From a virus: a DNA stretch of 28,704 bases. The DNA is taken from positions 1 to 28,704 of IMG/VR virus record IMGVR_UViG_3300042458_000738; one strand, written 5' to 3'. Below the pieces are notes generated by a model that saw only the letters and a list, made by a program, of their open reading frames with translations, did no database searches and was not told where the DNA came from. Made by a program: the position numbers and the translations under genes. Below are positions 647 through 12,142 of this stretch, one piece after another; position 1 is the stretch's first letter, and every line of letters begins with the position of its first letter.

Positions 647-705
647 GGTTGGTTGGTGGTTGGTGCGGTTCGGATCTGTTGCAGTTGGGCGGGCGGGTGG
701 CAAGT

Positions 706-903
706 TCAATTCTGGTTTTCAGACTCGCCCGCATGGAATGCCTGGAGGGCGTCGCGGATCAGTTCGGCCTTGCGTTTGCACGATGTCAGGCAGACGCGGC
801 TTTGGTCGCGGGTGTCGCCGACTTCCCACTCGTGCCACTCTTGGAGCTTCACCAATGAGCCGAGAAGAGTGCCGGGTTCGGCGATAAAAAAACGGGGTTT
901 CAT
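706..903 (-). CDS. Small hypothetical phage protein
   Basis: 65 residues starting MKPRFFIAEPGTLLGS. I do not recognise a family. It is hydrophilic, with a Trp/Glu-rich centre (KLQEWHEWEVGD) and a Lys/Arg/Cys stretch (VCLTSCKRKAEL), and no membrane segment. The ATG overlaps the stop of the upstream gene by four bases (ATGA), so it is probably translationally coupled to it. It sits between small genes of the replication block and the primase-like gene. Existence is supported by tight packing and the preserved frame; function is unknown. Confidence 0.55.
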   Translation of the reverse strand: MKPRFFIAEPGTLLGSLVKLQEWHEWEVGDTRDQSRVCLTSCKRKAELIRDALQAFHAGESENQN

Positions 904-1097
904 GGTTGATTCTGAGTTTCGCCCTCGTCCCAGCCCGCCTCGTAGGCATACCAGCGGAGCGTCCGGGGTGGCTGGTCGTTGTCCCAGTGGCCCCTGCGGG
1001 CGTCGTCAAAGCCGGTCTGGAAGATCGACTCCAGCGCCTTCCAGTGCGGGCTGCGCCGGAGCTGTAGCAGGGTCGGCGGGATAGGTGGTTGTGGCAT
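900..1097 (-). CDS. Small hypothetical phage protein
   Basis: 65 residues starting MPQPPIPPTLLQLRRSP, soluble and aromatic-rich in the second half (RTLRWYAYEAGWDEGE). The pattern of an acidic segment with 'AYEAGWDEG' resembles short phage proteins of unknown role that end in such a Trp/Gly motif. It starts two bases after the TAA of the VRR-NUC gene (TAACCATG) and ends in an ATGA overlap with the next gene. No function can be assigned. Confidence 0.6.
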   Translation of the reverse strand: MPQPPIPPTLLQLRRSPHWKALESIFQTGFDDARRGHWDNDQPPRTLRWYAYEAGWDEGETQNQP

Positions 1098-1099
1098 GG

Positions 1100-1447
1100 T
1101 TAGAGCGGGCTGATGATCCCCAGCGCATCCTCCACCGATCGCGCCACGCCTGCAAGCCCGCCGTCGGCCCGGACCCGTGCGATGAAGTTGCGCTGCTGGT
1201 CGGTGGCCTTGCCCCGCTCACCCTTCACCTCGATGGCGAGGAAGATCGCGAGCTTCTGGCCGACCATGTCCGGCGTGACGGTCACGGATCGCCAGCCGAT
1301 CAGGTCGGACCCGCCGGGGTTGGCGACGCCGTAGCGGATGAGTCGGCCCTCGGCGTCCTTGAGCGCGCCGCAGTTGTTGCGGAAGAGCCGGACGCCGGGA
1401 GTCGAGAGGCCGAGCATGATGGCTCGCAGGCGGTTCATTTCGTTCAT
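1100..1447 (-). CDS. VRR-NUC domain nuclease
   Basis: 115 residues forming a compact single-domain PD-(D/E)XK nuclease of the VRR-NUC type. Visible motifs are PGGSD at 44-48 (Asp48), then IEVKGERGK with Glu73-x-Lys75, followed by QQ at 84-85 and a hydrophobic helix. These match the family's catalytic order D...ExK...Q. Known VRR-NUC proteins cut branched DNA or flaps; phage stand-alone versions usually sit beside SF2 helicases, as here. I place the start at the ATG whose first base is shared with the TGA of the upstream repeat protein (TGATG coupling); an in-frame extension further upstream is only an antisense-like reading inside that gene. A role in resolving or trimming replication/recombination intermediates is inferred. 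Confidence 0.85.
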   Translation of the reverse strand: MNEMNRLRAIMLGLSTPGVRLFRNNCGALKDAEGRLIRYGVANPGGSDLIGWRSVTVTPDMVGQKLAIFLAIEVKGERGKATDQQRNFIARVRADGGLAGVARSVEDALGIISPL

Positions 1448-1941
1448 CAGAAGAGGTCTGGTTGTGGAGTTGGTTGGGCGGGTTGTGGATCCTCGATCAC
1501 CGGCGGGTTCGCGATCTGCTCGCAGACCTCCATCGCGTAGCCGCTGAGTTCGTGGATGAGTTCGGCGAGGGTTTGGCCGGGGTGGGGTTGAAGGTTGGCG
1601 ATGGATTTGAAGACCGCGTTCCTGTTGTAGAGACTCGCCTGCCATGATTGGAATGATGATCCGTTTTCTCCGGCGAAGCGTTTTCGGCGTAGCCATCTCC
1701 GTTTCATCTCCGCATGATTCTCTTTGTTGGCTTCGCGCCATCGGCGTTGCTGCTCCGTCTGCTTCACCTTGTTGCCTTCGCGCCATCGGTGTAGCCGCTC
1801 CGTCTCCTGCTCCTTGTTGGCTTCTCTGTATCGGCGTTGTCGCTCCGCGTTCTTCTCCTTGTTGGCCTCCTTGTTGGCTTCCCAGTATCGGCGCTTTTGT
1901 TCACGCAGCCGCGCCCTCCTCTCCTCCGGTGTCATACTCAT
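1447..1941 (-). CDS. Helical 15-residue repeat protein (REANKE repeats)
   Basis: 164 residues. Residues ~1-75 are extremely charged and built from imperfect 15-residue repeats around the core RRWREANKE (variants RRYREANKE, RRWREGNK), predicted to form one long helix. The rest contains an ordinary-looking domain (QTLAELIHELSGYAMEVCEQIA) and a Pro/Gln-rich tail. The start is the ATG in the ATGA overlap with the helicase stop; an in-frame ATG 27 bases upstream lies inside the helicase gene. Comparable REAN(K/P)E repeats occur in phage proteins, some next to HNH nucleases, but no function is established that I can cite. Position between helicase and VRR-NUC suggests a DNA-binding or scaffolding partner; this is inference. 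Confidence 0.75.
   Translation of the reverse strand: MSMTPEERRARLREQKRRYWEANKEANKEKNAERQRRYREANKEQETERLHRWREGNKVKQTEQQRRWREANKENHAEMKRRWLRRKRFAGENGSSFQSWQASLYNRNAVFKSIANLQPHPGQTLAELIHELSGYAMEVCEQIANPPVIEDPQPAQPTPQPDLF
1724..1893 (-). repeat. Tandem 45-bp coding repeat
   Basis: The word ttgttgg/ttgttgc recurs on the plus strand at 1724, 1769, 1814 and 1859, exactly 45 bp apart, followed each time by a variant of cttcgcgccatcggcg. A further ttgttgg at 1871 marks a 12-bp internal duplication (EANKEANKEK). It encodes the 15-residue helical repeats of the protein that spans it. Confidence 0.85.
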
Positions 1942-3317
1942 CGCAGCACCCCCTTCCGCGAGTTCCACACGTGCTTCGCCCAGACATCCGGCGAGCGGTA
2001 GCCCCGCGCCCGTCCCAGCGCGATCAAGTCATCCAGCGTTTGCGCCGATCCCTGCTCCTGCCGTTTCTGGCGGGCGATCTCCTTCGGGTCGATCTGCACC
2101 AGCTCGCCCTCGGCCTGCTCGATCTCGCGCTCCTTCTTCGGATACTCGAACCCGCACTCCGGGCAGACCGGCGCTGGCGGGTGACAACAGTAGCACTCCC
2201 TGCACTGCCGCTGCTGGATCTCCTCCTCGTCGCTGGCCTTGCGCTTCTTCTTCTTCCGGCCCTCCAGCGTCCAGTCGCGGACATCCTCAGCGAACCCGTG
2301 GCGGGACAGGTTGCCTACGTGGTCGAGGATGATCGCCTTCGTCTTCCCCGGTGCCGGCCGCAGCACCCGACCGATCTGCTGGAGGTGCAGCCCCAGCGAC
2401 TTCGTCGGCCGGAGCAGGATCGCAGCGGTGACGAGCGGCAAGTCGAAGCCCTCGTTGATGATCTCGCAACTCGTCAGGACATGCAGGCGGCCGTCACCCA
2501 GAGCCCGCACGACTTCCCGGCGTGACTCGCGGTCCATCGTGCCGTCGATGGTCGCAGCCCTGTATCCCGCGGCGTTGAACTGCTCGGCGACGTGCTGGGC
2601 GTGCTTGACGGAGCAGCAGAACGCGACGGCCGGCGCTCCCCGGCAGATTCTTGAATAGTGCTCGACCGCGTCGCCGGTGATCGTCGGGCGGTCCATCTCG
2701 GCGGCGAGTTCGTCCTGGGCGAAGTCCCCGCCTCGGGTGCCGATGTGGGAAAGGTCAGCCACGATCGGCGGCGCGAAGTAGACCGGCGGTGCCAGGTGCC
2801 CGCCCTCGATCAGATCGGCGACTTCCGGCCCGCGGATCAGGTCGTCGAACACGTCCTTGAGGCCGCGCCCGTCGAGCCGCTGCGGCGTCGCTGTCACGCC
2901 GAGGACGCGGGCCTGCGAGTGATGGGCGATCACCTTTCGCCAACTTCCAGCCGTCGCGTGATGCGCCTCGTCGGCGATGATCAGCGCCGGCCGGAACGAG
3001 TCGAGACGCCGGACGTAGGTCTGCACCGATGCCACCTGCACGGGAAGCGATCGGTCAGGCGTGCGGCCCGCGGCGATGACGCCGTGATCGACACCGAACG
3101 CCCGGAGCGTCCGGCAGGTCTGGTCCACCAGCTCCTGCCTGTGGACGAGGATGACGACGCCGTTGCCCTTGGCTGCGGTCCCCTGCGCGATGTAGGAGAA
3201 CAGAACCGTCTTCCCGGATCCGGTCGGAGCAACGACGAGAGGCGACCGTTTGCCGGATCGGTAGGATCCGCGAACGCCATCGACCAGGTCGAGTTGGTAG
3301 TCTCGGAGGGTGATCAT
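1938..3317 (-). CDS. SF2 DEAD/DEAH-type DNA helicase with C-terminal zinc finger
   Basis: 459 residues. Helicase superfamily 2 motifs appear in order: Q-type N terminus (LRDYQLDLVDGV), Walker A APTGSGKT at 30-37, DEAH at 116-119, TAT at 142-144 and motif VI QQIGRVLR at 313-320. The layout matches the ResIII/DEXD family of phage helicases. A lysine run at ~354-360 is followed by a four-cysteine zinc finger (Cys372, Cys375, Cys385, Cys388, with extra Cys377/378). The enzyme should use ATP to unwind or remodel DNA at forks or recombination intermediates. It overlaps its neighbours by ATGA on both sides and shares a transcript with VRR-NUC and primase-like genes, so a replication/repair role is likely. 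The family call is firm; the substrate is not known. Confidence 0.93.
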   Translation of the reverse strand: MITLRDYQLDLVDGVRGSYRSGKRSPLVVAPTGSGKTVLFSYIAQGTAAKGNGVVILVHRQELVDQTCRTLRAFGVDHGVIAAGRTPDRSLPVQVASVQTYVRRLDSFRPALIIADEAHHATAGSWRKVIAHHSQARVLGVTATPQRLDGRGLKDVFDDLIRGPEVADLIEGGHLAPPVYFAPPIVADLSHIGTRGGDFAQDELAAEMDRPTITGDAVEHYSRICRGAPAVAFCCSVKHAQHVAEQFNAAGYRAATIDGTMDRESRREVVRALGDGRLHVLTSCEIINEGFDLPLVTAAILLRPTKSLGLHLQQIGRVLRPAPGKTKAIILDHVGNLSRHGFAEDVRDWTLEGRKKKKRKASDEEEIQQRQCRECYCCHPPAPVCPECGFEYPKKEREIEQAEGELVQIDPKEIARQKRQEQGSAQTLDDLIALGRARGYRSPDVWAKHVWNSRKGVLR

Positions 3318-3574
3318 GTGTGGTCTCCGCTGAGGTGGTAGTTGCCTCGCTCTTGCCCGAGGATCTTGTCGAAGCCGGACACGAACCCGAGGTCTTGCAT
3401 CCTTGGATCGCTCGGCAGGCGTTGGCCGACCGCGTCGATCTCGCGCGCCTGCTCCAAGGTGTGCTTGGGATACTTCCGCAGCAGGTGCCGGTCGTCCTCG
3501 CTGAGTCCCGGCGCACGGTCGCGGAGCAGCCGGGCAGCGGCCTGCTTGGCGAGTTTCATTTCGCGGTCAGTCAT
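3314..3574 (-). CDS. Hypothetical phage protein upstream of helicase
   Basis: 86 residues starting MTDREMKLAKQAAARLLRDR, mostly helical and charged in the first half and Gly/aromatic in the second (GFVSGFDKILGQERGNYH). No family recognised. The start codon overlaps the stop of the helix-turn-helix gene (ATGA), and its stop overlaps the helicase start (ATGA), so all three are probably translated in a coupled way. No zinc-binding or catalytic pattern is visible. Confidence 0.6.
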   Translation of the reverse strand: MTDREMKLAKQAAARLLRDRAPGLSEDDRHLLRKYPKHTLEQAREIDAVGQRLPSDPRMQDLGFVSGFDKILGQERGNYHLSGDHT

Positions 3575-3750
3575 GGCTTCTCAATGCTGAGGATGATGCT
3601 GCGGATCCGGGAAAGGCTCGCAGCCCGCGGCTGGAACTTGCCCGTCTTCCAGCGCCAGAACGTGGCGCGGTTGACGCCGGCGAGGATAAGGACGCCGGCG
3701 ATGGTGTGGCCCGCGGCCTTGGCCCGGGATTCGATTTCGGTGGTTGTCAT
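3571..3750 (-). CDS. Small helix-turn-helix DNA-binding protein
   Basis: 59 residues starting MTTTEIESRAKAAGHTIAG. Residues ~14-45 look like a Cro/excisionase-type helix-turn-helix: TIAGVLILAGVNRATFWRWK is a helix, turn, and recognition helix with a basic Trp-rich end, the pattern common in short XRE-like phage regulators. The ATG is preceded by ATCCAACC and no Shine-Dalgarno sequence. It overlaps the next gene by ATGA and the upstream membrane-protein gene by the same arrangement. It is one of the few candidate transcription regulators in the window; target sites could be the repeated promoters, which is speculation. Confidence 0.7.
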   Translation of the reverse strand: MTTTEIESRAKAAGHTIAGVLILAGVNRATFWRWKTGKFQPRAASLSRIRSIILSIEKP

Positions 3751-3866
3751 GGTTGGATGAGGTGAGCAGGCCCGCGGACATCAGCTTCGCCGGGTCCGGG
3801 GTTGAGGTGGTTGATGATGGTGACGGCGGCGTAGAAGGCGGCGGCGAGGATGAGGAGTCGGGTCAT
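3747..3866 (-). CDS. Tiny single-pass membrane protein
   Basis: 39 residues starting MTRLLILAAAFYAAVTIINH. Residues 4-18 are a hydrophobic stretch long enough for one membrane helix, followed by a short polar Pro/Gly-rich tail. There is no lipobox. The start overlaps the preceding stop and its own stop overlaps the next ATG. Small phage membrane proteins of this kind can be inhibitors of host functions or superinfection factors, but nothing here shows which. The call as a real gene rests on the exact overlaps on both sides and sensible composition. Confidence 0.5.
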   Translation of the reverse strand: MTRLLILAAAFYAAVTIINHLNPGPGEADVRGPAHLIQP

Positions 3867-4009
3867 GGCTTTGGCAGGTTGCGGAGTTCAAGCCGGGCAG
3901 CCACGGCCTTCTCGATGTGCCATCGGCGCGCGTTGGGTTTACCCATGCGGCGGGCGTGGCGGGCGAGCGCCAAGCGGTCGCGCATCTCAGAGTGCAGGTC
4001 GGTGGTCAT
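3863..4009 (-). CDS. Small basic hypothetical protein
   Basis: 48 residues starting MTTDLHSEMRDRLALARHAR, strongly basic (many Arg/His) and helical, without membrane segments. No family recognised. It begins three bases after the TGA of the upstream gene (TGACCATG) and ends overlapping the next start. Likely a small nucleic-acid- or protein-binding factor given its charge, but that is inference only. Confidence 0.5.
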   Translation of the reverse strand: MTTDLHSEMRDRLALARHARRMGKPNARRWHIEKAVAARLELRNLPKP

Positions 4010-4011
4010 GG

Positions 4012-4275
4012 TCAGGCGAGGATTGCGGCAACAACGCGGTCAAAACGCTCCAGAGCGTCGTCACCGGCTGGCATGGATGCGATCTTGGCGAGGATCGGCA
4101 GCGCTTTGGCTTGATCGGCAAGGACCGTCTTGTGCTCGGCGGTCATCATGTGGGCCAGCGACTGGAGCATCCCGGCGGCGGCAGCTTGCTCGGCGGTCAT
4201 TCCGGCGCGGGCGGCCATGGCATCAAACTTGGCTTTTCCGTCGAGTCCGAAAATCAGTTGGGCGATGGTGGTCAT
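4012..4275 (-). CDS. Hypothetical phage protein, first gene of block 3
   Basis: 87 residues starting MTTIAQLIFGLDGKAKFDAM. It is Ala-rich and helical, with a Met-rich centre (GMLQSLAHMMTAEHK). No known family is recognised. As the first gene behind promoter A it should be among the most strongly expressed of the block, which ends with helicase and primase-like genes. The leader carries three ACCAACC-type repeats and no Shine-Dalgarno sequence. Function unknown. Confidence 0.6.
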   Translation of the reverse strand: MTTIAQLIFGLDGKAKFDAMAARAGMTAEQAAAAGMLQSLAHMMTAEHKTVLADQAKALPILAKIASMPAGDDALERFDRVVAAILA

Positions 4276-4311
4276 GGTTTGTTGGTTGGTTGGTGGTTGG
4301 TGTCGGTTGAC
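4276..4311 (-). promoter_or_regulatory. ACCAACC-rich 5' leader of block 3
   Basis: Between the predicted transcription start and ATG the RNA reads, in part, ACCAACCACCAACCAACC followed by AACAAACC and the ATG. It has no purine-rich Shine-Dalgarno sequence and almost no self-pairing potential. Nearly the same leader precedes the genes starting at 646, 6258 and 8234. Confidence 0.6.
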
Positions 4312-4317
4312 GGCGTG

Positions 4318-4345
4318 AAACTAGCCCCCTGTCGCACAAGTGCAA
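4318..4345 (-). promoter_or_regulatory. Promoter A (block 3)
   Basis: Minus-strand TTGCAC at 4345-4340 and TAGTTT at 4323-4318 are separated by 16 bp. The -35 box is inside TATTGTTGCACTT, which is shared with the junctions at 6322 and 8313 at the same spacing. It follows a terminator directly and precedes a gene start by about 40 bp, the expected geometry for a promoter. Confidence 0.7.
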
Positions 4346-4347
4346 CA

Positions 4348-4385
4348 ATAAAAAGCCCGCCCGCGAAAATAATCCACGGACGGGC
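4348..4385 (-). terminator. Rho-independent terminator ending block 2
   Basis: On the minus strand an 11-bp stem GCCCGTCCGTG / CGCGGGCGGGC (two G-U pairs) with an AT-rich loop is followed by TTTTTATT. It lies 22 bases after the stop of the winged-helix gene, and its T tract leads straight into the -35 box of promoter A. Confidence 0.85.
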
Positions 4386-4407
4386 GAACCGGCGACGAAC
4401 ACGACCG

Positions 4408-4701
4408 CTAGGGCGGCGGGTTGTCAGGGGTGTTGGCTAGAGAATCCACCCGCCGCAGCCCCTCCGCAGTCAGCCGCCAGAACGGCCAGCCGTTGCGGTT
4501 CTCCTCGGGTCGGACGAGTCCTTTGCTCTTGAGGACAGCCACGACGGCCATCGGATCTTTCGAGCAGTGGTCGAGCGCGGCCTTGATGTCGGGCGACTGC
4601 GCCTTGCCGTCCATCCCGGCGATGACTCCGAGGGCGATGGCCTCCCGTGCCCCGACGCCGGCAGCAGCGAGCATCTTTCCAGCGTTAATCAGTGCCTGCA
4701 T
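4408..4701 (-). CDS. Winged-helix-like small regulator
   Basis: 97 residues from the ATG at 4701 (MQALINAGKMLAAAGVGARE). The second half resembles a MarR/PadR-like winged helix: a helix (IKAALDHCSKDPMAVVAVLK), the turn SKGLVRPEENRNG and a wing (WPFWRLTAEGLRRV). The final LTAEGLRRV is typical for the last strand and helix of such folds. The start overlaps the upstream membrane-protein gene by 13 bp. It is the last gene before the terminator, so it may regulate the block. DNA binding is inferred from the fold pattern only. Confidence 0.65.
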   Translation of the reverse strand: MQALINAGKMLAAAGVGAREAIALGVIAGMDGKAQSPDIKAALDHCSKDPMAVVAVLKSKGLVRPEENRNGWPFWRLTAEGLRRVDSLANTPDNPPP

Positions 4702-4904
4702 CGGTTGGAGCGGTTGAGGTGGTGCCGGCGGTCGGAGTATTCCGCCGCGGCGAGGTTGAGTGCCTGCACGCCTATGCAGGCAAATGCCAGCGAAGGCCAT
4801 GACGGCCCGGTGAGGATTGCCCCGGAGATGAGGATGATCCCGCAGCTGAGGAATAGGCGGGCGAGCATTAAGCAGTTGCGGGCGCGTAGTTGGTGGTAGT
4901 TCAT
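4689..4904 (-). CDS. Small membrane protein with two predicted helices
   Basis: 71 residues starting MNYHQLRARNCLMLARLF. Two hydrophobic segments (about residues 13-32, LARLFLSCGIILISGAIL, and 35-52, WPSLAFACIGVQALNLAA) are separated by a short turn; the C terminus is Arg/His-rich. There is no lipoprotein signal. It starts four bases behind a terminator-like hairpin with a T tract, which should reduce its expression relative to the upstream gene. Function unknown; a second holin or an inner-membrane host-modifier are possibilities. Confidence 0.5.
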   Translation of the reverse strand: MNYHQLRARNCLMLARLFLSCGIILISGAILTGPSWPSLAFACIGVQALNLAAAEYSDRRHHLNRSNRCRH

Positions 4905-4907
4905 GGG

Positions 4908-4936
4908 TAAAAAGCGGGAGGGATCGGACCTCCCGC
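4908..4936 (-). terminator. Terminator-like hairpin placed just before a start codon
   Basis: The minus strand reads GCGGGAGG, loop TCCGATC, CCTCCCGC, then TTTTTA and ACCC before the ATG at 4904. This is a strong rho-independent terminator by stem and T tract, yet it lies between two genes of one block with no promoter visible after it, so it probably acts as an attenuator. Confidence 0.75.
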
Positions 4937-4947
4937 GGGGTTGGTGG

Positions 4948-5829
4948 TTATCGTTTGACCTTCAGGTTCTGGAACACCCGGAGCCCTGCGACATCCGGCA
5001 GCTTTCCGTTGCGCTCGAAGCTCTTCTTCAGCGCCGCCAGAACATCAGCCCGCTTCGGTTCGATCCGGCAGAGCTGCGGGAATTTCGCCACGAACGCGAG
5101 GATGTCCTCGACATCGAAGTCGATCTCTTCCCGCACGCCGGCAGGCGCCGGTGCTGCGACGGCCTCCGCTGCGGCGATCCGTGCGGCCCCCTCCCGCTCC
5201 CGTGCTGCGGCTGCGTCAGCTTCAGCCTGGCGACGGGCGGCTTCGGCCCGTGCCTCGGCCTCCCGCTGCGCTGCCAGTGCCTTCTCCTGCGCCTCGCGGG
5301 CTGCTCGTTGTCCATCCTCCGACTGCGCGGCCTCGGCCTTCAGGCGGGCGATCTCGGCCTCATGCGCGGCCCGTTCCGCGGCCTGCCGTTCCCGCTCGAT
5401 CCGGGCGGCCTCCCGCTGCGCTGCCATCTCGGCCTCGTGGCGCTCGCGCTCGACCCGTTGGCGCTCCTGCTCTGCCGCGAGTTCGGCCTCACGCTTGATG
5501 CGCTGCTGCTCGCGGGCGTATTCCGTCACCAGTCCGGACAGGCGGGCCTCCTCGGCGATGACCTCGGCCACGAAGTCGGCGGCGATCCCGTCGATCCGTT
5601 TACCCAGGTCGATGACCGGTGCTTTGACCTGCTTGCGGCTCGACTCGACCGCGGTGCGAACGCTGGCAAGGGATCGGAGCCGGGACTGTGCGATGTCGCA
5701 AGAGTCGGCGTCAGTGACCGCCACGACGGCGCGGGCGGCGTTGATGATTGTGGCCTTCTGCTTCTCAGCTTCGGGCGTGATGGCGATCTGATAGCCATCT
5801 CCGAGGATGGCGAGTGCGTTGGTGCTCAT
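4948..5829 (-). CDS. Coiled-coil protein of the RecT-neighbour (DUF1351-like) type
   Basis: 293 residues. Residues ~1-110 form a globular N-terminal part (MSTNALAILGDGYQIAITPE), residues ~110-220 are an uninterrupted Ala/Glu/Arg helix (repeats like EAEMAAQREAARIERERQ), and ~235-290 are a second small domain (EEIDFDVEDILAFVAKFP). This plan, a conserved head, long coiled coil and short tail next to recT, is that of phage DUF1351-type proteins thought to assist recombination or replication; the exact role is not established. The start overlaps the upstream gene (ATGA) and is preceded by ATCCAACC. Family call is by architecture and context, so moderate. Confidence 0.65.
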   Translation of the reverse strand: MSTNALAILGDGYQIAITPEAEKQKATIINAARAVVAVTDADSCDIAQSRLRSLASVRTAVESSRKQVKAPVIDLGKRIDGIAADFVAEVIAEEARLSGLVTEYAREQQRIKREAELAAEQERQRVERERHEAEMAAQREAARIERERQAAERAAHEAEIARLKAEAAQSEDGQRAAREAQEKALAAQREAEARAEAARRQAEADAAAAREREGAARIAAAEAVAAPAPAGVREEIDFDVEDILAFVAKFPQLCRIEPKRADVLAALKKSFERNGKLPDVAGLRVFQNLKVKR

Positions 5830-6035
5830 GGTTGGATAGGCTTGCCGTTGATGTCACAGTTGATGCCGGGGATGGGATGCTGGTTGCTGGTCGCCAGCGG
5901 CAGCTCGGGGTGGCCGGCGAATGGATCGGGTTTAGCGGCGGCTTCTGCGATCCGCTCGGCGCGGTCAATGGCTTCGCAGAATCGGGCGAGCAAGGCGTCG
6001 ACCTGCTCGATCAGTTGTTTCAGTTCTCGGTTCAT
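5826..6035 (-). CDS. Small hypothetical protein
   Basis: 69 residues starting MNRELKQLIEQVDALLARFC. The first ~35 residues are one amphipathic helix with heptad-like leucines; the second half is Pro-rich and probably unstructured. It ends in an ATGA overlap with the coiled-coil gene, suggesting the two proteins are made together and may interact. No family recognised. Confidence 0.55.
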   Translation of the reverse strand: MNRELKQLIEQVDALLARFCEAIDRAERIAEAAAKPDPFAGHPELPLATSNQHPIPGINCDINGKPIQP

Positions 6036-6081
6036 GGTTGGTATTGTTCCGCGTGTAGGATGCGCGGCCCCCGTTGGAGAT

Positions 6082-6258
6082 TTAGCGGCGGGTCCGTTTG
6101 ATCCACCAGTGTTCGCCGTTTTTGATTTCAGTGACCATTGTCTTGGCGGTTTGGAAGCTCAACCCGCGACTCCGAAGAAAGCGGATTGCAGGGATGGTAT
6201 CGCCATTTCTGGCAGCGAGGATTTCGAGGACTTCGGTCACTGATGCTTCAAGTGTCAT
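6082..6258 (-). CDS. Small basic protein, possible helix-turn-helix, first gene of block 2
   Basis: 58 residues starting MTLEASVTEVLEILAARNG and ending with a basic aromatic tail (HWWIKRTRR). The central part (TIPAIRFLRSRGLSFQTAKT) has the helix, turn, helix spacing of small DNA-binding proteins, though not a clear family match. It is the first gene behind promoter B and has the leader ACCAACCGACCAAGACC before ATG. Its position makes a regulatory role plausible, but this is inference. Confidence 0.6.
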   Translation of the reverse strand: MTLEASVTEVLEILAARNGDTIPAIRFLRSRGLSFQTAKTMVTEIKNGEHWWIKRTRR

Positions 6259-6294
6259 GGTCTTGGTCGGTTGGTGGTGTCGGTTGACGTGCGA

Positions 6295-6322
6295 ACCCTA
6301 TCCGATGCGGCCCGGAGTGCAA
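6295..6322 (-). promoter_or_regulatory. Promoter B (block 2)
   Basis: Minus-strand TTGCAC at 6322-6317 and TAGGGT at 6300-6295 with a 16-bp spacer. The upstream context TTTTTTATTGTTGCACT matches promoter A. Downstream, GTCAACCGACACCA is also shared with the leader behind promoter A. Confidence 0.7.
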
Positions 6323-6325
6323 CAA

Positions 6326-6366
6326 TAAAAAACCCGCCCCGGCAAAATAAATTCACCGGGGCGGGT
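6326..6366 (-). terminator. Rho-independent terminator ending block 1
   Basis: Perfect 11-bp stem ACCCGCCCCGG / CCGGGGCGGGT on the minus strand with a 13-base AT-rich loop, followed by TTTTTATT that joins the -35 region of promoter B. It starts eight bases after the recT stop. Confidence 0.9.
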
Positions 6367-6374
6367 GGCGAGTA

Positions 6375-7166
6375 TCACCCGAAGATGTCGCCGTCGTCAG
6401 TGGCAGGCTGCGCGTCCTTACGCGCTGCATCCCGCTCCTGGGTGTTTTCGGCGGCCTTGCGTGCCTGCTCGACGTATGGGTCTACCTGCACCGGCTCGGC
6501 CTTCGCAGCCTTCGCCTTCTTGGCCGGTGGCAGCACCTCCACCTCGGCGGCTGGCTCCGGTGCGTCGTCGAGGATTGTTGACTCGGTGCGGGTCGTCACG
6601 TTGCGCGGGCGGTCGCCGATGTCCTCCACCTCCTCAGTGGCGTGCATCCCGTTGAGGACATCGGGCGCGTAGAGTCGCCCGAAGAACGCGGCGGCACGAT
6701 AGCGGAGCATCAGCTCCGGCATGGTCTTCCACTTCGATCCATTCTTGGCATACCATCCTTCTGCCTTGGCCATCGCAATCGACGCCGGCGGGCCTTCGAG
6801 GCGCTCGCCGGTCTTGTCGGTCGTCCATGCGATGCAGCTCCGATCGTCGCCCTCGCCGGTCACCTCGAAGCGAACCGGCGCGAACCGGCCGCAGGAGTTG
6901 AGCGCCGCGATGATGAAGGTGGAGGACCACGATGGGCGCCCGTGGATGATGTTGAGGTTCTGCATCACGGCGAGCGGCGAGGCCCCGATGCGCTGGGCCA
7001 TCTCCAGCGCCACGATGGCGTTGCCGATGTTGTCTTTTCCTCGGTATTGCTCCGGGACGATGTTGCTAGAGACGAGCGCCAGCGCCATGCGCTGGGCGGA
7101 CTCGAAGCTGGCGGCGTTTGAAAACGCGGTGATGGAATGCGTGGTGGTCGTGATGTCGGTTGTCAT
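6375..7166 (-). CDS. recT: RecT-family single-strand annealing protein
   Basis: 263 residues from the ATG at 7166. The conserved RecT core is visible: GASPLAVMQNLNIIHGRPSW at 61-80 continuing into SSTFIIAALN, then PELMLRYRAAAFFGRLYAPD near residues 165-185, and an acidic, Ala/Lys-rich tail ending GDIFG. RecT proteins bind ssDNA left by a 5'-3' exonuclease and promote annealing and strand invasion in phage recombination. The gene directly follows a RecE-like exonuclease, the usual partner. A longer reading upstream to 7205 overlaps the exonuclease gene and lacks the family's start, so it is rejected. Strong call. Confidence 0.93.
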   Translation of the reverse strand: MTTDITTTTHSITAFSNAASFESAQRMALALVSSNIVPEQYRGKDNIGNAIVALEMAQRIGASPLAVMQNLNIIHGRPSWSSTFIIAALNSCGRFAPVRFEVTGEGDDRSCIAWTTDKTGERLEGPPASIAMAKAEGWYAKNGSKWKTMPELMLRYRAAAFFGRLYAPDVLNGMHATEEVEDIGDRPRNVTTRTESTILDDAPEPAAEVEVLPPAKKAKAAKAEPVQVDPYVEQARKAAENTQERDAARKDAQPATDDGDIFG

Positions 7167-7195
7167 GGTGGTATTGGTTGGGGTGAGGGAGAGAA

Positions 7196-7993
7196 TCAGG
7201 CCCACTTGGGGAGGTCAATCGTTAACGGCGCGTCGGAGTAGCCGGGCCAAGTGTCGGCATCCTGGCACCGGCGGAATGTGTCCAGGTCGGTCTGGTATTC
7301 GATCCGGCCGCGCTGTGCCATCGTCTCGCTGGCGACATAGACGGCGACGAGGTAGGGCGGCTCGGTCTCGACGGCGATGAAGACGAATCCACGCGGTGCC
7401 TCGCCGAACGCAGCCCGGTAGCCGTCGGAGTAGAACGCGGCCTGCACGTGGTAGCGATACTGTGCCACCGACTTCGCGAAGCCATCGGGTGAGGCGTCGC
7501 GGGTGGTCTTGAGATCGACGATCACCCCACGCTCGGTCACCGCATCCGGCCTGCACCTGCACGCGATCCCGTCGGCGTTCCAGAAGATTGACTGCTCGAT
7601 CACCGGCGAGCCTGCTAGCGCCTTCGCAGCGGCAGGGTGGGATCGCACTGCGTCCCGGATCGCGGCGAGCTTCGCGCCCTCCTCGTTGGTGATGATCTCG
7701 CGGCCCTCAGCCTCCAGCTCGAACGCGGCCCAGTCGGCCTTCCCGGCGCTGGTGCGGCGGTCGATGCCTTCGGGGCGGGCGATCACGGAGTGGGCGAAGA
7801 CTTCCGGCTCCAGAACGACGGTGTGCGTCAGCGTGCCAAGCCGCATCGCGGGCGTCTGCTCCTGTGGGTTCTCCCTCCGGTAGGCGTAGAGGTAAGGAGC
7901 GCGGCGGATTAGATCCAGCCCGCTCTTGGAGATCGCGGGCGAGGCGTGGTATTCTGCGTTGGTCAGGTCGTGACTGATGGTTGGTGTGGTCAT
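7196..7993 (-). CDS. RecE-like 5'-3' exonuclease (exodeoxyribonuclease VIII / PD-(D/E)XK)
   Basis: 265 residues from the ATG at 7993. The N-terminal YHASPAISKSGLDLIRRAP and LGTLTHTVVLEPE (His57) are hallmarks of the phage RecE C-terminal nuclease family. The catalytic region is CRCRPDAV (Asp150), VIVDLKTT (Asp160-x-Lys162) and the downstream helix QYRYHVQAAFYSDGYR. It should chew one strand of linear dsDNA to give ssDNA for RecT, encoded next. The start is separated from the upstream small gene by a hairpin and the leader TTTTCCAACC. In-frame codons upstream to 8161 belong to the intergenic hairpin and the neighbouring gene and are not coding. Confidence 0.92.
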   Translation of the reverse strand: MTTPTISHDLTNAEYHASPAISKSGLDLIRRAPYLYAYRRENPQEQTPAMRLGTLTHTVVLEPEVFAHSVIARPEGIDRRTSAGKADWAAFELEAEGREIITNEEGAKLAAIRDAVRSHPAAAKALAGSPVIEQSIFWNADGIACRCRPDAVTERGVIVDLKTTRDASPDGFAKSVAQYRYHVQAAFYSDGYRAAFGEAPRGFVFIAVETEPPYLVAVYVASETMAQRGRIEYQTDLDTFRRCQDADTWPGYSDAPLTIDLPKWA

Positions 7994-8009
7994 GGTTGGA
8001 AAAGGAAGA

Positions 8010-8032
8010 GCGCCGGGGATCGAACCCGGCGC
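8010..8032 (-). promoter_or_regulatory. Intergenic hairpin with tRNA T-arm-like loop before the exonuclease gene
   Basis: Minus strand: GCGCCGGG, loop TTCGATC, CCCGGCGC, then TCTTCCTTTTCC and AACC-ATG. Stem and loop are those of a tRNA T arm lengthened to 8 bp, but no D or anticodon arm is present upstream. The T/C tract could make it a weak terminator or an RNA-stability element. Confidence 0.65.
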
Positions 8033-8042
8033 GGTGGGTGGG

Positions 8043-8234
8043 TTAGGCGGGGCGGCCTGCGCGGATCGCTTTTGGGGCGTAAACGCGGACGCCGCCGTAG
8101 TAGAGCGAGGATGATGGCTGGGTAGTAAAGCCAGCGGCAGCAAGCTCGGCTTTCGTTTCAATGGAGATGGACGAGAAGTCCGCGTAGCCGTTGTTGCCGT
8201 TGGTTGCTGCGGTCTTGATTGCTTCGGTGGTCAT
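8043..8234 (-). CDS. Small hypothetical protein, first gene of block 1
   Basis: 63 residues starting MTTEAIKTAATNGNNGYADF, Ser/Thr/Ala-rich with a C-terminal strand-like part (SSSLYYGGVRVYAPKAIRAG). No family recognised. It is the first gene behind promoter C and precedes the RecE-like exonuclease, so it is expected to be strongly expressed; exonuclease or host RecBCD inhibitors are often encoded here in phages, but nothing in this sequence proves that role. Confidence 0.55.
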   Translation of the reverse strand: MTTEAIKTAATNGNNGYADFSSISIETKAELAAAGFTTQPSSSLYYGGVRVYAPKAIRAGRPA

Positions 8235-8285
8235 GGTGTCGTTTGGTTGGTGGTTGGTCGTCGCGTTGCTCGCTTCGATGCGAGG

Positions 8286-8313
8286 AACCTACCCCGCCCC
8301 CTGCGAAGTGCAA
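8286..8313 (-). promoter_or_regulatory. Promoter C (block 1)
   Basis: Minus-strand TTGCAC at 8313-8308 and TAGGTT at 8291-8286 with a 16-bp spacer, in the context TTATTTTGTTGCACTT. Same word and geometry as promoters A and B. It drives the recombination block starting at 8234. Confidence 0.7.
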
Positions 8314-8335
8314 CAAAATAAATCCACCCGCCCCA

Positions 8336-8368
8336 AAATAAAATCCCCGCCCCTTTCGAGGCGGGGAT
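8336..8368 (-). terminator. Terminator after the structural/lysis region and tRNA
   Basis: Minus strand: ATCCCCGCC, an 8-base loop, GGCGGGGAT, then TTTTATTTTG. A second T-rich stretch, GGATTTATTTTG, follows and carries the -35 box of promoter C. It lies 29 bases behind the tRNA and should end late transcripts. Confidence 0.85.
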
Positions 8369-8397
8369 CATGACACGCACGAATTACCCTGGAAAGA

Positions 8398-8469
8398 TTG
8401 CAGGGGTGGGGATCGAACCCACGACCTAGAGCTTATGAGACTCCCGCGCTACCACTGCGCCACCCTACG
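8398..8469 (-). tRNA. tRNA with CAU anticodon (Met, or lysidine-type Ile)
   Basis: The 72-nt minus-strand sequence folds as a full cloverleaf. D arm is GCGC-AGTGGTA-GCGC; the anticodon arm is GGAGT-CTCATAA-GCTCT with anticodon CAT; variable loop AGGTC; the T arm is GTGGG-TTCGATC-CCCAC. The acceptor is CGTAGGG with CCCTGCA and discriminator A; CCA is not encoded. Position 1-72 is a C-A mismatch, a mark of bacterial initiator tRNA, but the three G-C pairs at the anticodon stem base expected for initiators are missing, so an elongator Met or an Ile(CAU) tRNA is more likely. It sits at the end of the structural/lysis transcript before a terminator. Confidence 0.9.
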
Positions 8470-8583
8470 ATTGAAGTGCCCGGTCCCATCGCTAGCTTGC
8501 GCATGACGGCGGAGGGACCGAGCTGGCACCAACCAAGATACCGCCGACAGGGTCTCATGCCTTGGCCGGTTGTCGAGCCGTAA
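8470..8583 (-). other. Non-coding spacer between endolysin and tRNA
   Basis: No gene or second tRNA is visible. A 7-bp inverted repeat CGGTCCC/GGGACCG (about 8480-8520 region, loop of roughly 26 bases) could form a weak hairpin. With the tRNA, the terminator, promoter C and its leader this makes 8235-8583 the longest protein-free stretch of the window. Confidence 0.5.
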
Positions 8584-9252
8584 TCACTGGGTCGCTTGGA
8601 AGTGCATGGCATCCCTGCCGATCAGCCAGCCAAGGCCGACCCATCCCTCGGCGGCGAAGGCCTCCATCACCTCCAGTGGCATGTCGGCAGAAACCGGCCA
8701 CGACTGCGACATCCGGTTAGTGTCCGACGCGAGGTCGATGGCGGCACCGCGAGCGTGGAGACTCGGCAGCGATCCGCCGCGCATTGGGCGGTTGTTGAAG
8801 CATCCAGCGTATTGCGCGAGGATGTCAGGGTGCGTCTTCGAGAGTGCCACCAGCACGCGCTTGAGGCTGTCCGCTACCTTGTCGTGGCATCGGATCGACT
8901 TGACCGGCTTTCCGTCGTATCTGAGCCCGAGTCCTTCGACGTTGACGCTGACCAGCTTCGACTCGTCGCCGGGCGATCCGTAAAAGCCCTGTAGGGACTC
9001 CTGAGAAGCTCGCGGCCAGTTGGCGTCCTTTGGCATCAGTGAGCGCAGATAGGACTGGCAGGCGGCGATTGATTTCGGCCCCCAGAAGCCGTCAACCTCG
9101 ACGCCGATCTTGCTCTGGATCCTTTTGATGCGGTCGCGTGTCATGATCTCTTCAGGTGTTAGGTAGCTGATTGTGATCGTCGGGTCTGGCGGAAATATCG
9201 CGTCCCCGATCCGGCCGGCGAGCCAGGCCGAGAACTCGACGAGGAGATTCAC
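8584..9252 (-). CDS. M15-family peptidase endolysin with peptidoglycan-binding domain
   Basis: 222 residues from a GTG that overlaps the TGA of the holin-like gene (GTGA). Residues ~40-70 (RIKRIQSKIGVEVDGFWGPK) match a PG_binding_1 repeat. The C-terminal part is a D-Ala-D-Ala carboxypeptidase/L-Ala-D-Glu endopeptidase fold of family M15: SLHARGAAID gives zinc ligands His166 and Asp173, and GRDAMHF gives His217. It should cleave peptide cross-links of the cell wall for lysis. The frame is open further upstream to 9420, but that stretch is antisense-like Arg/Gly-rich sequence inside the holin gene. A later ATG at about residue 37 is an alternative start. The enzyme family is sure. Confidence 0.92.
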   Translation of the reverse strand: MNLLVEFSAWLAGRIGDAIFPPDPTITISYLTPEEIMTRDRIKRIQSKIGVEVDGFWGPKSIAACQSYLRSLMPKDANWPRASQESLQGFYGSPGDESKLVSVNVEGLGLRYDGKPVKSIRCHDKVADSLKRVLVALSKTHPDILAQYAGCFNNRPMRGGSLPSLHARGAAIDLASDTNRMSQSWPVSADMPLEVMEAFAAEGWVGLGWLIGRDAMHFQATQ

Positions 9253-9584
9253 GGATTTTTCAGCGCCTCCTTGACGCTGCCGAGGATTTCCGACGCATTC
9301 CGCAGGACGTTGGAGTTTTGCTCGACGACGGTGATCAGGCTCTTGCGATCCGCATCCCGCTCGTCTTCGCGCTTGTCGGCTTTTGCCTCGGCCTTGTCCA
9401 ATCGCTTGGACATCCACCACAGGCCGAGGGCGAGGCCGATGAGCGCCCCAAATGGGCCTTGCAGCTGCTGTATCCAGTCAGGCGCGGGAACTTGCGAGAG
9501 GATATCAGGGAGTGCTTGGGAGCCGACGATGCCTGCCACGATTGCGGTCAGGCCTGAAAGTGTGTGGTCGATGACAGGGTGCAT
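9249..9584 (-). CDS. Holin-like small membrane protein
   Basis: 111 residues. Two hydrophobic segments (residues ~9-28, LSGLTAIVAGIVGSQALPDI, and ~46-60, FGALIGLALGLWWMS) are followed by a highly charged helical tail (KRLDKAEAKADKREDERDAD) and a coiled-coil-like C terminus. Two helices plus charged tail directly upstream of an endolysin is the classic class II holin arrangement. Its stop overlaps the endolysin GTG. The assignment is by topology and position, as holins lack sequence motifs; a phage 'holin-like' or Rz-type role cannot be excluded. Confidence 0.75.
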   Translation of the reverse strand: MHPVIDHTLSGLTAIVAGIVGSQALPDILSQVPAPDWIQQLQGPFGALIGLALGLWWMSKRLDKAEAKADKREDERDADRKSLITVVEQNSNVLRNASEILGSVKEALKNP

Positions 9585-9589
9585 GTAGG

Positions 9590-10057
9590 TTAAGGCTCAG
9601 GCTCTGGTTCTGGCTCCGGTTCTGGCTCAGGCTCTAGCTCAGGCTCAGGCTCAGGCTCTGGCTCTGGCTCAGGCTCTGGCTCAGGCACCGGGATGTCCGC
9701 CACCACGAACGCGCCGCCGATGACCTCCAGCACGCGGCCCTGATCGAGGAGCTTGTCGAGGACGCTGCGGGTATCCACGCGCCCGAGGCTGCCATCTGCC
9801 GCGCCGGTTGCGAACTCGCTGCTGGCGGCTGCTTCGTTGAGCGCCTCACCGGTTTCTCCGTGCGCCGCGAACTCGGCAAACCGCTGCTCCAGCGGGCGGG
9901 CGTTCAGCCACTCGTTGAGTTCCGGCGTCGGCAGGTCGAGCGCGTGGCCGGTGATGCGGTTGGCGAGGTGGATTGCGTTGCGGAGGTGGGCGGCGAGAGC
10001 GCCAGCATCGGAGGCGATGCGGGCGGTTACGGATTCGGTTGGGGTGAGGAGGGACAT
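9590..10057 (-). CDS. Small protein with C-terminal Pro-Glu repeat
   Basis: 155 residues. The first ~120 form a helical soluble domain (SDAGALAAHLRNAIHLANRI ... SVLDKLLDQGRVLEVIGGA). The last ~32 residues alternate Pro and Glu (VPEPEPEPEPEPE, one Leu), a stiff extended acidic rod. There is no signal peptide. It lies between the LamG protein and the holin, the usual place of tail-fibre accessory or lysis-associated proteins. The domain itself is unfamiliar to me. The ATG lies five bases after the preceding stop with the context CTAATCCC. Confidence 0.65.
   Translation of the reverse strand: MSLLTPTESVTARIASDAGALAAHLRNAIHLANRITGHALDLPTPELNEWLNARPLEQRFAEFAAHGETGEALNEAAASSEFATGAADGSLGRVDTRSVLDKLLDQGRVLEVIGGAFVVADIPVPEPEPEPEPEPEPEPELEPEPEPEPEPEPEP
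9593..9685 (-). repeat. Hexanucleotide-type repeat coding for Pro-Glu
   Basis: The plus strand reads about fifteen consecutive variants of ggctct/ggctca/ggttct, encoding (Pro-Glu)n on the minus strand. The copies differ mainly at third positions. Such arrays expand and contract by slippage without changing frame, because each unit is two codons. Confidence 0.85.
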
Positions 10058-10061
10058 GGGA

Positions 10062-10778
10062 TTAGGTCAGGGCAATGCCCCACTTGTTGGACAGGTAGAT
10101 TTCAACGTTGCGGCGGTTAGAGTCGGAGAGCGCGGTTGGGAAAACCATAAACTCAGCAAAATCCGATGGGTGAGTCGCTCCTATATTGTTGCCGCTAATT
10201 CCAAGGGTCGTCGTAGAATGCGCAGCGATTGAACCAGTGGTCTGAACTCCATTTGCGGAAATTGATGATGATGCGACGTTTGATGTGGCACTAAGGATTT
10301 CAAGCGTCGTCGGCCTTGATCTTGATACGGTAATACCGGTCGTGGAAAACGCATACAACTGCGCGGTATTATTGTATCCCATCGCAAACACATTGGCCCC
10401 AAATCCATAGGCAACTCTAAAACCAGTTACGTCACCAGAAAGATAGACGACAGCAAAAACAGTAACCGGATTGCTTACTGTGAATCCTGTTCTGGTCATC
10501 AAATCACCAGATCCTGAAAATCTAAGAATGTCCCGCCCGTTGTAAATGGATGTTTTGCGAGCGGGCCTGTTTGCAAGGGTGCCTTGGGTGAGGTGTCGCA
10601 AATTGCCGGATTTATCCTCCCATCGCGCAACCGTGCCGTCGGGCGAGACAAGACCTCCTCCGGTGGTTGCGTCGTAAAGCGTCGCGGCATCACTCGCGTC
10701 CAACCACAAAGCAGGCGAGAGCGACAGCGGGTCAAACCGCCTGCGACTCGCTGCCATGATGGGTGACAAGCTGTTCAT
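10062..10778 (-). CDS. LamG/concanavalin-like lectin-fold tail protein
   Basis: 238 residues. After a short basic N terminus the protein reads SLSPALWLDASDAATLYDA and ARWEDKSGNLRHLTQ, the start of a LamG/ConA-like sandwich domain, then GRDILRFSGSGDLMTRTGFT and the C-terminal AEFMVFPTALSDSNRRNVEI typical for the last strands of this fold. Such domains bind carbohydrates and, behind a fibre gene, probably contact cell-surface glycans. The ATG overlaps the stop of the fibre gene by one base; a second ATG at residue 8 is possible. The domain call is good; ligand unknown. Slightly more A/T-rich than neighbouring genes, which might indicate recent exchange. Confidence 0.75.
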   Translation of the reverse strand: MNSLSPIMAASRRRFDPLSLSPALWLDASDAATLYDATTGGGLVSPDGTVARWEDKSGNLRHLTQGTLANRPARKTSIYNGRDILRFSGSGDLMTRTGFTVSNPVTVFAVVYLSGDVTGFRVAYGFGANVFAMGYNNTAQLYAFSTTGITVSRSRPTTLEILSATSNVASSSISANGVQTTGSIAAHSTTTLGISGNNIGATHPSDFAEFMVFPTALSDSNRRNVEIYLSNKWGIALT

Positions 10779-12142
10779 CAGATGAAATCGTAGGTGCCGC
10801 TTGCGATGTGTTTCAGGGCGAACGCGCCGTTCGTCGGGACGCTGGCGAGGTTCGCCGTGCCGTTCACGGTGCCGCCTGAGAAGGCGAGTGATTGAGTCGT
10901 GATGCGATAGAACTGGAACTCCGCGCCCGCCGAGATGCCCGATGTCGGCAGCGTGATTGTCTGCGTGCTGCCGGTCTTGGTCAGCCGCATGTAGGTTCCG
11001 GCGTCGGTCTGCGCGAGCGTGAAGTCGGCGCTTTTGGTGACGATGTTGTTCGCGAGGATCGTGTTCGCCGCTGCCGCATCCGCCGCCCCAAACAGCGCCG
11101 CGCCGGTTGTGCCTGCGCCGAGGGCGATGCGGTGGTCCGACGCGCTGGTGCCGCTGTAGGTAAAGGTCGCGCCAACCGAGGCCTGGTAATCCTCGAAAAA
11201 GAGAGTGCTAATCTGCGTCTCGTTGAAGATGGCTGTGCCCGCAAAATTTGTCCCGCCACTTGCATCCCGCAGCACCAGCCTGTTCGCCGTCGCTGCGCTG
11301 GTCGCGTCAGACACGTCGGCGCTGACAATGGCTTCATTGATCCAAAGCGTGTTGCCCGCGTTGCGCTTGATCACCTGCTTCGCGGCAGGCGAGGAGATCG
11401 CGACATCGTGAATCTCGTTCAGTTCGTAGCCGTTCTGGATGCCAACCAGAATCCTGCCGTCCAAATTTACACCGGTGCTGATCCGAGTGATGACGCCGAC
11501 GTAGACAAGATGATTTGGGGCGGAAGGTTTCGTCCGCGTGAACGCTCCGGGAGTTGTCGGAGAGAGGTAAATCTGAATGCCTGCGCCGATGATCCCATCC
11601 GCGTCAGCCGTTCTGACATTCTCAAGCTCGCCTTCCATGATGACGAACCCGTTCGCGCCGTTGGCAATGTCTGCCTTCGCGAAGCCAATCGTTCGCGCCG
11701 AGTTGGTGTCGTTGTTTGCCTGCGCGAGCGTGATGCGAGGATTGCCGCTGACCGCTCCGTTGATGTAAACGATGGATCCTTTCGTGATGGTTGCGCCGGT
11801 GCCGTTGTGGGCCAAGAACTCAAGGTTCTTCGCCACCGCGACTCCAGACGCAAGCTCCTGCTGCACGAATGCCGTGGTTGCAAGCTGCGTCGTCGAGGTG
11901 GTCGTCGCGGCTGTCGGTGCAACGGACATCCCTGTAATAGTCGCCGTCGCGGTCGTGACGTTGGACAGAGAGAGGTTGGCGGTGCCGTCGCTGGTCGTGG
12001 CTGAGGTGATACTGTTCGTCCCGCTACCATCAGCGCCAGCCGGTCCCTGCCGGATCTCAACCAGCGCGACGGTTGACGGCTGCGCCACTGCGACGGTGTC
12101 GATGACGGACGGCTGTGCGATTTCGACAATCTGGATACTCAT
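10778..12142 (-). CDS. Tail fibre / receptor-binding protein
   Basis: 454 residues, Thr/Ala/Gly-rich. The first ~40 residues are a probable attachment part (MSIQIVEIAQPSVIDTVAVA) followed by a short collagen-like GPAGADG. Then come low-complexity beta-rich repeats and, at ~105-245, a domain beginning NLEFLAHNGTGATITKGSIV and containing GRILVGIQNGYELNEIHDV that is common in environmental phage fibres. The C-terminal ~80 residues (FTLAQTDAGTYMRLTKTGST) form another beta domain seen at fibre tips. It should recognise the host surface. It overlaps the baseplate-like gene upstream by four bases. Confidence 0.8.
   Translation of the reverse strand: MSIQIVEIAQPSVIDTVAVAQPSTVALVEIRQGPAGADGSGTNSITSATTSDGTANLSLSNVTTATATITGMSVAPTAATTTSTTQLATTAFVQQELASGVAVAKNLEFLAHNGTGATITKGSIVYINGAVSGNPRITLAQANNDTNSARTIGFAKADIANGANGFVIMEGELENVRTADADGIIGAGIQIYLSPTTPGAFTRTKPSAPNHLVYVGVITRISTGVNLDGRILVGIQNGYELNEIHDVAISSPAAKQVIKRNAGNTLWINEAIVSADVSDATSAATANRLVLRDASGGTNFAGTAIFNETQISTLFFEDYQASVGATFTYSGTSASDHRIALGAGTTGAALFGAADAAAANTILANNIVTKSADFTLAQTDAGTYMRLTKTGSTQTITLPTSGISAGAEFQFYRITTQSLAFSGGTVNGTANLASVPTNGAFALKHIASGTYDFI

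Follow-up and report, generated by a model that had tools for sequence, protein, structure and literature searches.

What is the role of a promoter-like sequence that recurs three times, always on one strand, ahead of the non-structural genes of a phage, and which protein could read it? The question is raised by the IMG/VR virus record IMGVR_UViG_3300042458_000738, analysed here over its whole 28,704 bases (the window) and classed as a linear contig, which is often a fragment. The three minus-strand sites are termed P1 (8286..8313), P2 (6295..6322) and P3 (4318..4345), and consist of TTGCAC, a spacer of 16 base pairs (bp) and TAGGTT, TAGGGT or TAGTTT, respectively. They are very probably real promoters that an earlier note on this DNA had partly misread, as judged from sequence. 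P3 carries a near-palindrome over its −35 element that is probably the operator of a small helix-turn-helix (HTH) protein of 59 amino acids (aa), encoded in the block behind P3 itself; this protein resembles the 434 and P22 repressors and would act by autorepression in the manner of Cro or Aca proteins, with P1 and P2 retaining the left operator arm only. The HTH family and the operator are shown to co-occur among the sequences compared, where residue 28 of the protein covaries with the outer operator base.

Three probable early promoters and a hidden palindrome

The pattern TTGCAC-N14..20-TAGNNT was recovered where the earlier note had placed it, three times in the window, always on the minus strand and always with 16 spacer bases, compared with a mean of 0.03 and a maximum of 1 in 100 dinucleotide shuffles of the window; read backwards, the TTGCAC/TAGNNT pattern gave no match there. 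The longer repeat TTGTTGCAC was likewise confirmed with three copies on the minus strand and none on the plus strand. The sites had been called identical but are only similar, having TTGTTGCACT, the 16-bp spacing and TAGNNT in common while their spacers differ. The exact spacing applies to all three window sites but not to the relative L008, which has 17 bp. It had also been suggested that TAGNNT might require a host-specific sigma factor or an activator made by the phage. This is unsupported, as the box of relatives also reads TATACT, TAAATT, TAAGTT, TAGATT or TAATAT, and such varied boxes that keep T1, A2 and T6 are what is expected of a sigma-70-type −10. In related records the −10 lies at exactly 16 bp in 24 of 29 TTGCAC-TANNNT matches. 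The window sites follow the sigma-70-type spacing rule (hexamers 16–18 bp apart, T1, A2 and T6 of the −10 kept); a sigma-70 consensus scan of positions 1–12000 (agreement with TTGACA/TATAAT at 9 or more of the 12 bases) listed none of P1–P3. We regard P1–P3 as predicted sigma-70-type early promoters.

Related phage contigs were gathered by RecT and helicase searches. When the −10 is disregarded, P1 and P3 can be made out in each of the eight close relatives and P2 in five. The full set of three sites with TAGNNT at 16–17 bp was present in 5/8 (L004, L005, L007, L009 and L012, of which L004 and L005 nearly duplicate the window in this region and L012 nearly duplicates L007), and partial sets were found in L008 (P1 and P3), L101 (P1 only) and L010 (P3 only). 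Over 19 related records, several of them near-copies of each other, TTGCAC-N14..20-TANNNT gave 29 matches in 13 records vs 13 matches for the reversed pattern. A scan with TTTTTNTTGTTGCACTN15TAG matched 16 stretches, several from known relatives.

The near-palindromy of the site at 4345 was missed in the earlier note. The putative P3 operator, GTTGCACTTGTGCGAC (4331..4346, minus strand), overlaps the −35 and matches GTTGCAC-NN-GTGCAAC at 13 of 14 positions; P2 scores 8/14, and P1 falls below the scan threshold with the left arm alone seen by eye. At P3, and in many relatives too, TTGCAC forms the palindrome's left arm and TANNNT follows 16 bp further on, so that the hexamer and fixed spacing described before appear as one half of a promoter-operator overlap. 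Palindromes in relatives include GTTGCACAAGTGCAAC in G016 (14/14), ATTGCACAAGTGCAAT in G012, CTTGCACAAGTGCAAG in G013 and GTTGCACAAATGCAAC in G004 and G006. A chosen set of 30 sequences held 125 oriented sites of at least 9/10, every palindrome being counted in both directions; 28 of them had TANNNT 15–17 bp further on, where 0.9% would be expected by chance. Among these 28 the left arm had one mismatch in all and the right arm nine, a bias expected if the left arm doubles as a −35 element.

The palindrome was also met in other settings. At L272:1952-1967 (G001) and L256:14567-14582 (G003) it lies with a leader, GTCAACCGACACCACCAACC, between the terminase and portal genes, and this interval holds a small gene (77 or 61 aa, the two without a mutual blastp match) on the strand opposite to the terminase; at this place the window shows a gap of 49 bp instead. 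G004, G006 and G007 have a further palindromic promoter (L258:3114, L261:13940 and L262:5712) in the distal part of the early region, downstream of the nuclease gene, a place that the window either lacks or does not reach. In the distant phages L108, L110 and L371 the 5' leaders just after the −10 of the operator-promoter share TGTCGCCGCGAGCGAC, which could form a small hairpin. Four more distant relatives (G008, G012, G013 and G016) out of 16 related records have a Phage_integrase domain, whose match ends 82–148 bases before the operator; the other 12 records, possibly fragments, gave none. An integrase beside the operator fits a role in the choice between lysis and lysogeny in those four. 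The Akkermansia phages Chambord and Chantilly showed no operator at 12/14 or better.

The likely operator and a small helix-turn-helix family co-occur

The proposed P3 repressor is encoded at 3571..3750 (minus strand), inside the P3 block and shortly before the helicase gene; in the five cases measured, the end of the HTH gene falls somewhere from 3 bases inside the helicase gene to 254 bases ahead of it. Its predicted recognition helix spans residues 28–36 (…GVNRATFWRWKTGKFQP…) and begins with R28. Homologues with an invariant T-x-WRWK core are present in the relatives that have P3. An AlphaFold model (pLDDT 91.8) has helices at 3–12, 17–24, 28–36 and 43–57, a helical fold with a helix-turn-helix as in XRE and lambda-repressor-like proteins. 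Foldseek placed C.Kpn2I, HipB, SinR, DdrO and P22 c2 among the top ranks, with TM scores of 0.69–0.76 to P22 c2, SinR and C.Kpn2I. A second aligner laid residues 1–55 on residues 1–54 of the 434 repressor (2r63) with Z 6.2, where a structural Z below 8 can mean just a common arrangement. A search of solved structures by sequence returned nothing convincing. The HTH_3 profile did not match the window protein and was above cut-off in 0/16 related records, with two weaker matches, one at the HTH of G013.

TTGCA-N4-TGCAA was present at 9/10 or better within 1.6 kb upstream in 17 of 20 HTH loci, and perfect (10/10) in ten. The distance from operator to HTH start was 595 bases at P3 and 52 bases in L111, and the inverted repeat lies inside the predicted core promoter of the HTH gene's own operon, as in Aca systems. 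When all palindromes with 5-bp half-sites and gaps of 0–10 were counted upstream of these 20 loci (L013, L015, L016 and L414 not being among them), TTGCA-N4-TGCAA was the commonest exact one, in 7 of 13 lineages vs 2 for the next best. Seven remote homologues (L370–L376) came from a profile search and had no part in motif discovery; in this set alone the same palindrome again ranked first (3/6 vs 2). Exact copies numbered 8 vs 0.23 expected in 12 contigs with window-type HTH (window excluded), 17 vs 0.29 in the seven remote HTH contigs, and 6 vs 0.14 in another three recT contigs that carry a related HTH. The count was 0 vs 0.25 expected in the 13 helicase relatives that have no close HTH, and the HTH profile gave only a weak match among them, in L122 (E 2e-5 in that set). 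A related HTH (ESTFYRWQ) is seen in L013, L015 and L016, RecT phages of another group, each with two exact TTGCA-N4-TGCAA copies and C as the outer base.

The identity of residue 28 is linked to the outer base of the operator. With R at this position the outer base was G in 26 of 28 half-sites, whereas with other residues it was G in 1 of 50. The remaining pairings were H with C (4/4), Y with A (2/2) and E with C (10/10), and those of Q and W were mixed. Half-sites share descent and several stand in the same contig, so these counts overstate independence; at the level of lineages, which were grouped by hand and are not independent either, the division was 6/0 vs 0/8 (Fisher 3.3e-4). The half-site table was compiled by hand and omits L371:16077 and L372:3423 (inside long frames), L110:5357 and L376:11958, as well as the terminase-portal copies, P1, P2 and all HTH contigs without a site. 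In the 933W repressor the outer conserved base pair is specified by the residue that opens the recognition helix, as a model and a mutant have shown (PMC3317979). By this precedent residue 28 is the position expected to read the outer operator base.

Several observations weigh against an operator read by this protein. Since the right arm is lacking at P1 and P2, the operator accounts for one of three window sites only, and the arm is also missing from P1 and P2 of aligned relatives, apart from a shifted arm in P1 of L010 (by eye); P2 itself is missing from some close relatives (L101/L006, L008 and L010). Three of 100 shuffles of the window's upstream region scored as well. TANNNT is absent at 15–17 bp from P3 of L006 and L104 and from the terminase-portal copies of G001 and G003. 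Three of the 20 HTH loci (L109, L110 and L370) have no 9/10 site within range, although L110 has one further upstream, beyond 1.6 kb, and L414 has an HTH (Y28) with no such site in its stretch. The recT contigs L014, L017, L018 and L026 carry a more distant HTH of the EST type, three with N for R33, and no exact copy. In 68 other recT contigs there are eight exact copies vs 2.76 expected. When all viral contigs were probed for operator plus −10, 48 stretches were returned and the HTH was within 3 kb in two; one more belongs to a contig already known to carry it, and of the remaining 45, 35 lay over a frame of more than 100 codons. The motif with its −10 is thus not diagnostic by itself. As regards the protein, the Foldseek E-values were weak (best 0.073), and neither Pfam (best E 0.068) nor PHROGs (best E 0.078) matched the HTH to a family significantly.

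Proposed autorepression and its alternatives

The earlier note had described each promoter as fused to a terminator whose T tract runs into the −35 region. Predicted intrinsic terminators, that is G+C-rich stems followed by T-rich tails, are found at all three sites on the minus strand: at 4355..4385 (13-pair stem, folding z −4.9, T tract into TTGTTGCAC), at 6332..6366 behind recT (15 pairs, z −5.9) and at 8342..8369 behind tRNA-Met (12 pairs, z −3.9). The fusion holds at 4345 and 6322 but not at 8313, where the stem ends at 8342, 28 bases ahead of TTGCAC, and a separate ATTTATTTT stretch adjoins the site. Terminator-like hairpins as a class were not enriched in positions 1–12000 (11 vs 9.7 expected), and the three cassette hairpins have the longest stems among them. 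The downstream sequence said to be common to two sites is indeed there: GTCAACCGACACCA follows P2 (6275..6288) and P3 (4298..4311) on the minus strand. An A-rich stretch (e.g. gaaaataatcgaaaaa) is seen by eye upstream in several relatives, as well as at the window group's fourth site, in the place that the terminator occupies at P2 and P3. The P3 terminator of L007 and L008 has a P2-like left arm (CCCCGGTGAATTTATTTT) and a P3-like right arm, as if cassettes had recombined. The idea of modular terminator-promoter cassettes heading early blocks is supported by intergenic position, strong stems and recurrence in the same place despite changing first genes; it is weakened by the relatives without P2 and by P1 of L010 and P3 of L101, which lack TAGNNT at 16–17 bp.

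P1 comes after tRNA-Met, P2 after recT and P3 after a 130-aa frame. The predicted P1 block comprises a 63-aa gene, the exonuclease and recT, the P2 block genes of 58, 69 and 293 aa, and the P3 block an 87-aa gene, the HTH gene, an 86-aa gene, the helicase and a VRR-NUC nuclease. In the proposed mechanism host RNA polymerase would start these early blocks at P1–P3, while the stems would end the preceding transcripts and leave each block dependent on its own start. The HTH protein made from P3 may then dimerise and cover the −35 together with the upstream portion of the spacer, a position that points to repression, and so shut P3 off in a negative feedback like that of Cro or Aca. P1 and P2, with the −35 arm only, could remain active for longer, be bound more weakly or be less damped.

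Could the sites simply be host-type promoters of the form TTGCAC-N16-TAGNNT that were duplicated as cassettes within the phage, with the P3 palindrome arising by chance? Such an origin would suit the recurrence of P1 and P2 in relatives despite the missing right arm, the better conservation of the left arm (1 vs 9 mismatches) and the leaders and terminator loops that the cassettes have in common. We consider it unlikely, since a −35 element cannot account for an inverted right arm that recurs in remote phages, and both the covariation of the outer base and the absence of the palindrome from helicase relatives without a close HTH would be left unexplained. MotA takes the place of the sigma −35 contact at T4 middle promoters, and the HTH protein might similarly be an activator replacing this contact at the half-site, with a weak TAGNNT in need of it and P1 and P2 as half-site targets. 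The weak −10 boxes of the window, none of which the consensus scan lists, are in keeping with this, as is a half-site held at 16-bp spacing even without a second arm. Nevertheless, activation seems improbable: the spacer is taken up by the second arm, an arrangement better suited to blocking than to recruiting, and HTH proteins of the Aca type, whose inverted repeat lies in the core promoter, were shown to repress (PMC9410906). Relatives bearing the palindrome moreover have near-consensus −10 boxes such as TATACT.

Even less probable, and in our view very much so, is that the palindrome is a borrowed site of a host regulator, for example host LexA, by which the phage senses the state of its host. 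Phages often use host SOS operators, and the LexA box of Verrucomicrobia is reportedly TGTTC-N4-GAACA, which has the same spacing as the palindrome. Its sequence is different, however, and the outer base of the palindrome tracks a residue of a phage protein across lineages. The operator with a −10 was found in 0/7 genomes of the sampled phylum with related terminases, and GTTGCACNNGTGCAAC in 0/3 genomes; both counts are weak, as the genomes may not include the host. Autorepression by the HTH protein at P3 remains the reading that we prefer.

The lambdoid repressors P22 c2 and 434, alongside which Cro may also be compared, resemble this system in fold, helix numbering, an operator over the −35 and a first helix residue that appears to read the outer base. 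Unlike them, the HTH here has 59 aa and no further domain, and no partner repressor was recognised (Peptidase_S24, the domain of S24-type repressors, in 0/16 related records), although G016 has one further weak HTH_3 match. In the early region of actinophage phiC31, several early promoters, terminators between blocks and repressor-bound inverted repeats near promoters occur together; its host and operator are different. Aca proteins and acr-aca promoters (PMC9410906) share with the present case a small phage HTH protein within the operon controlled, an inverted repeat in the core promoter and small first genes, and Aca10 (7xi5, Z 6.5) is among the structural matches of the HTH model. Here, in contrast, the block also holds a helicase and a nuclease, no anti-CRISPR was identified, and three terminators are each followed by one and the same −35 word. 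Mycobacteriophages L5 and D29 have an operator and stoperators, and thereby several intergenic repressor sites of which one overlaps an early promoter; the L5 sites are asymmetric, 13 bp long, present in about 24 copies and act on passing transcription (PMC5712189). The sites described here are symmetric and few, and most have their own −10 box. What is likely to be new is a small putative phage repressor family with a likely operator and a likely recognition rule, in a kind of system that is already known. No description of this operator or HTH family was recognised among the papers that literature searches listed, and such papers may still exist. A repeat so far unexplained would become a phage switch that can be tested, in what is probably a group of bacteria from which few phages are known, together with a predicted protein-DNA recognition rule that sets helix residue 28 against the outer operator base.

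Genes behind the cassettes, and the phage and its host

The first genes behind the cassettes encode 63 aa at P1 (8043..8234), 58 aa at P2 (6082..6258) and 87 aa at P3 (4012..4275), all on the minus strand, and neither Pfam nor PHROGs gave a family match for them with E below 0.1. The 58-aa protein bears a faint likeness to the end of ribosomal L7/L12, by eye only. In 29 hand-chosen cassettes, close relatives included, an ATG frame 40 or more codons long begins 38–140 bases after the left arm in 28 and at 35 bases in the 29th. Those 28 first genes form 22 groups without a mutual blastp match and 27 of them are 49–105 aa long; one cassette first gene is the exonuclease and one the HTH itself. 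Cassette first genes as predicted here are mostly small and unrelated, and the motif points to small early genes without known function. This cargo resembles acr-aca operons (PMC9410906), and conserved early regulatory sequences of archaeal viruses have been used to find anti-defence genes (PMC11065993), an approach that offers a lead here. A tentative and rather doubtful extension is that the cassette serves as a docking site for revolving small early proteins of anti-defence or host takeover under one phage autorepressor. If this were true, a T tract or A-rich stretch followed by NTTGCAC-NN-GTGCAAN, N7 and TANNNT beside the HTH family could locate counter-defence genes in uncultured phages.

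Every assigned gene of the window is on the minus strand. The order is terminase-like, Mu-type portal, protease, capsid, tail-region and endolysin genes, then a tRNA-Met (anticodon CAT, 8396-8470) between the late genes and P1, then the non-structural genes, among them an exonuclease VIII-like protein (7196..7993) and a RecT-like annealing protein (6375..7166) in the P1 block and a ResIII/DEAD-type helicase (1938..3317) in the P3 block, all three on the minus strand. The phage is a tailed phage. A near-mode search of window positions 1–24000 against named phages returned no match.

The terminase of the window is named from its relatives, the nearest named matches being Akkermansia phages at 39–46% identity. 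A terminase relative was found in 15 of 387 genomes of the phylum that holds Pontiellaceae (best 63–65%), which is Kiritimatiellota in NCBI and Verrucomicrobiota in GTDB. The host is probably a member of this Verrucomicrobiota/Kiritimatiellota group. A host search by terminase in genome contigs matched 28 stretches, none of them confirmed. By helicase alignment the best identity was 55% among the 80 loci kept, and the only one named Verrucomicrobiota was a Pontiellaceae locus at 29%. The three best terminase contigs from the sampled phylum (6.4–8.1 kb) carried none of eight other window proteins tested.

In the same 387 genomes the HTH profile matched 11 (best E 2e-11). A narrow motif rule, applied to 11 of the 16 loci of these genomes, was satisfied in one (L377), without a palindrome, and a profile rescan of the 16 loci gave 14 matching frames, the best of which have FWAW, LWRW or LWKW in place of FWRW. 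TTGCA-N4-TGCAA reached 9/10 in only one of seven loci tested. A related regulator family may therefore exist in genomes of that phylum, with no such operator seen. Four of these HTH-profile loci, all in one genome, G077 (L377, L388, L390 and L392; best E 2e-11), have longer open frames and other core residues, and no operator was seen at them.

Two minor features of the window may be added. Between the endolysin and tail genes, positions 9587-9698 hold a short-period repeat of GGCTCAGGCTCT-like units. Many early genes on the minus strand within positions 700-8300 start after CA-rich leaders that end in AACC or ACC before the ATG; these leaders have no Shine-Dalgarno-like stretch, and another mode of translation start may apply.

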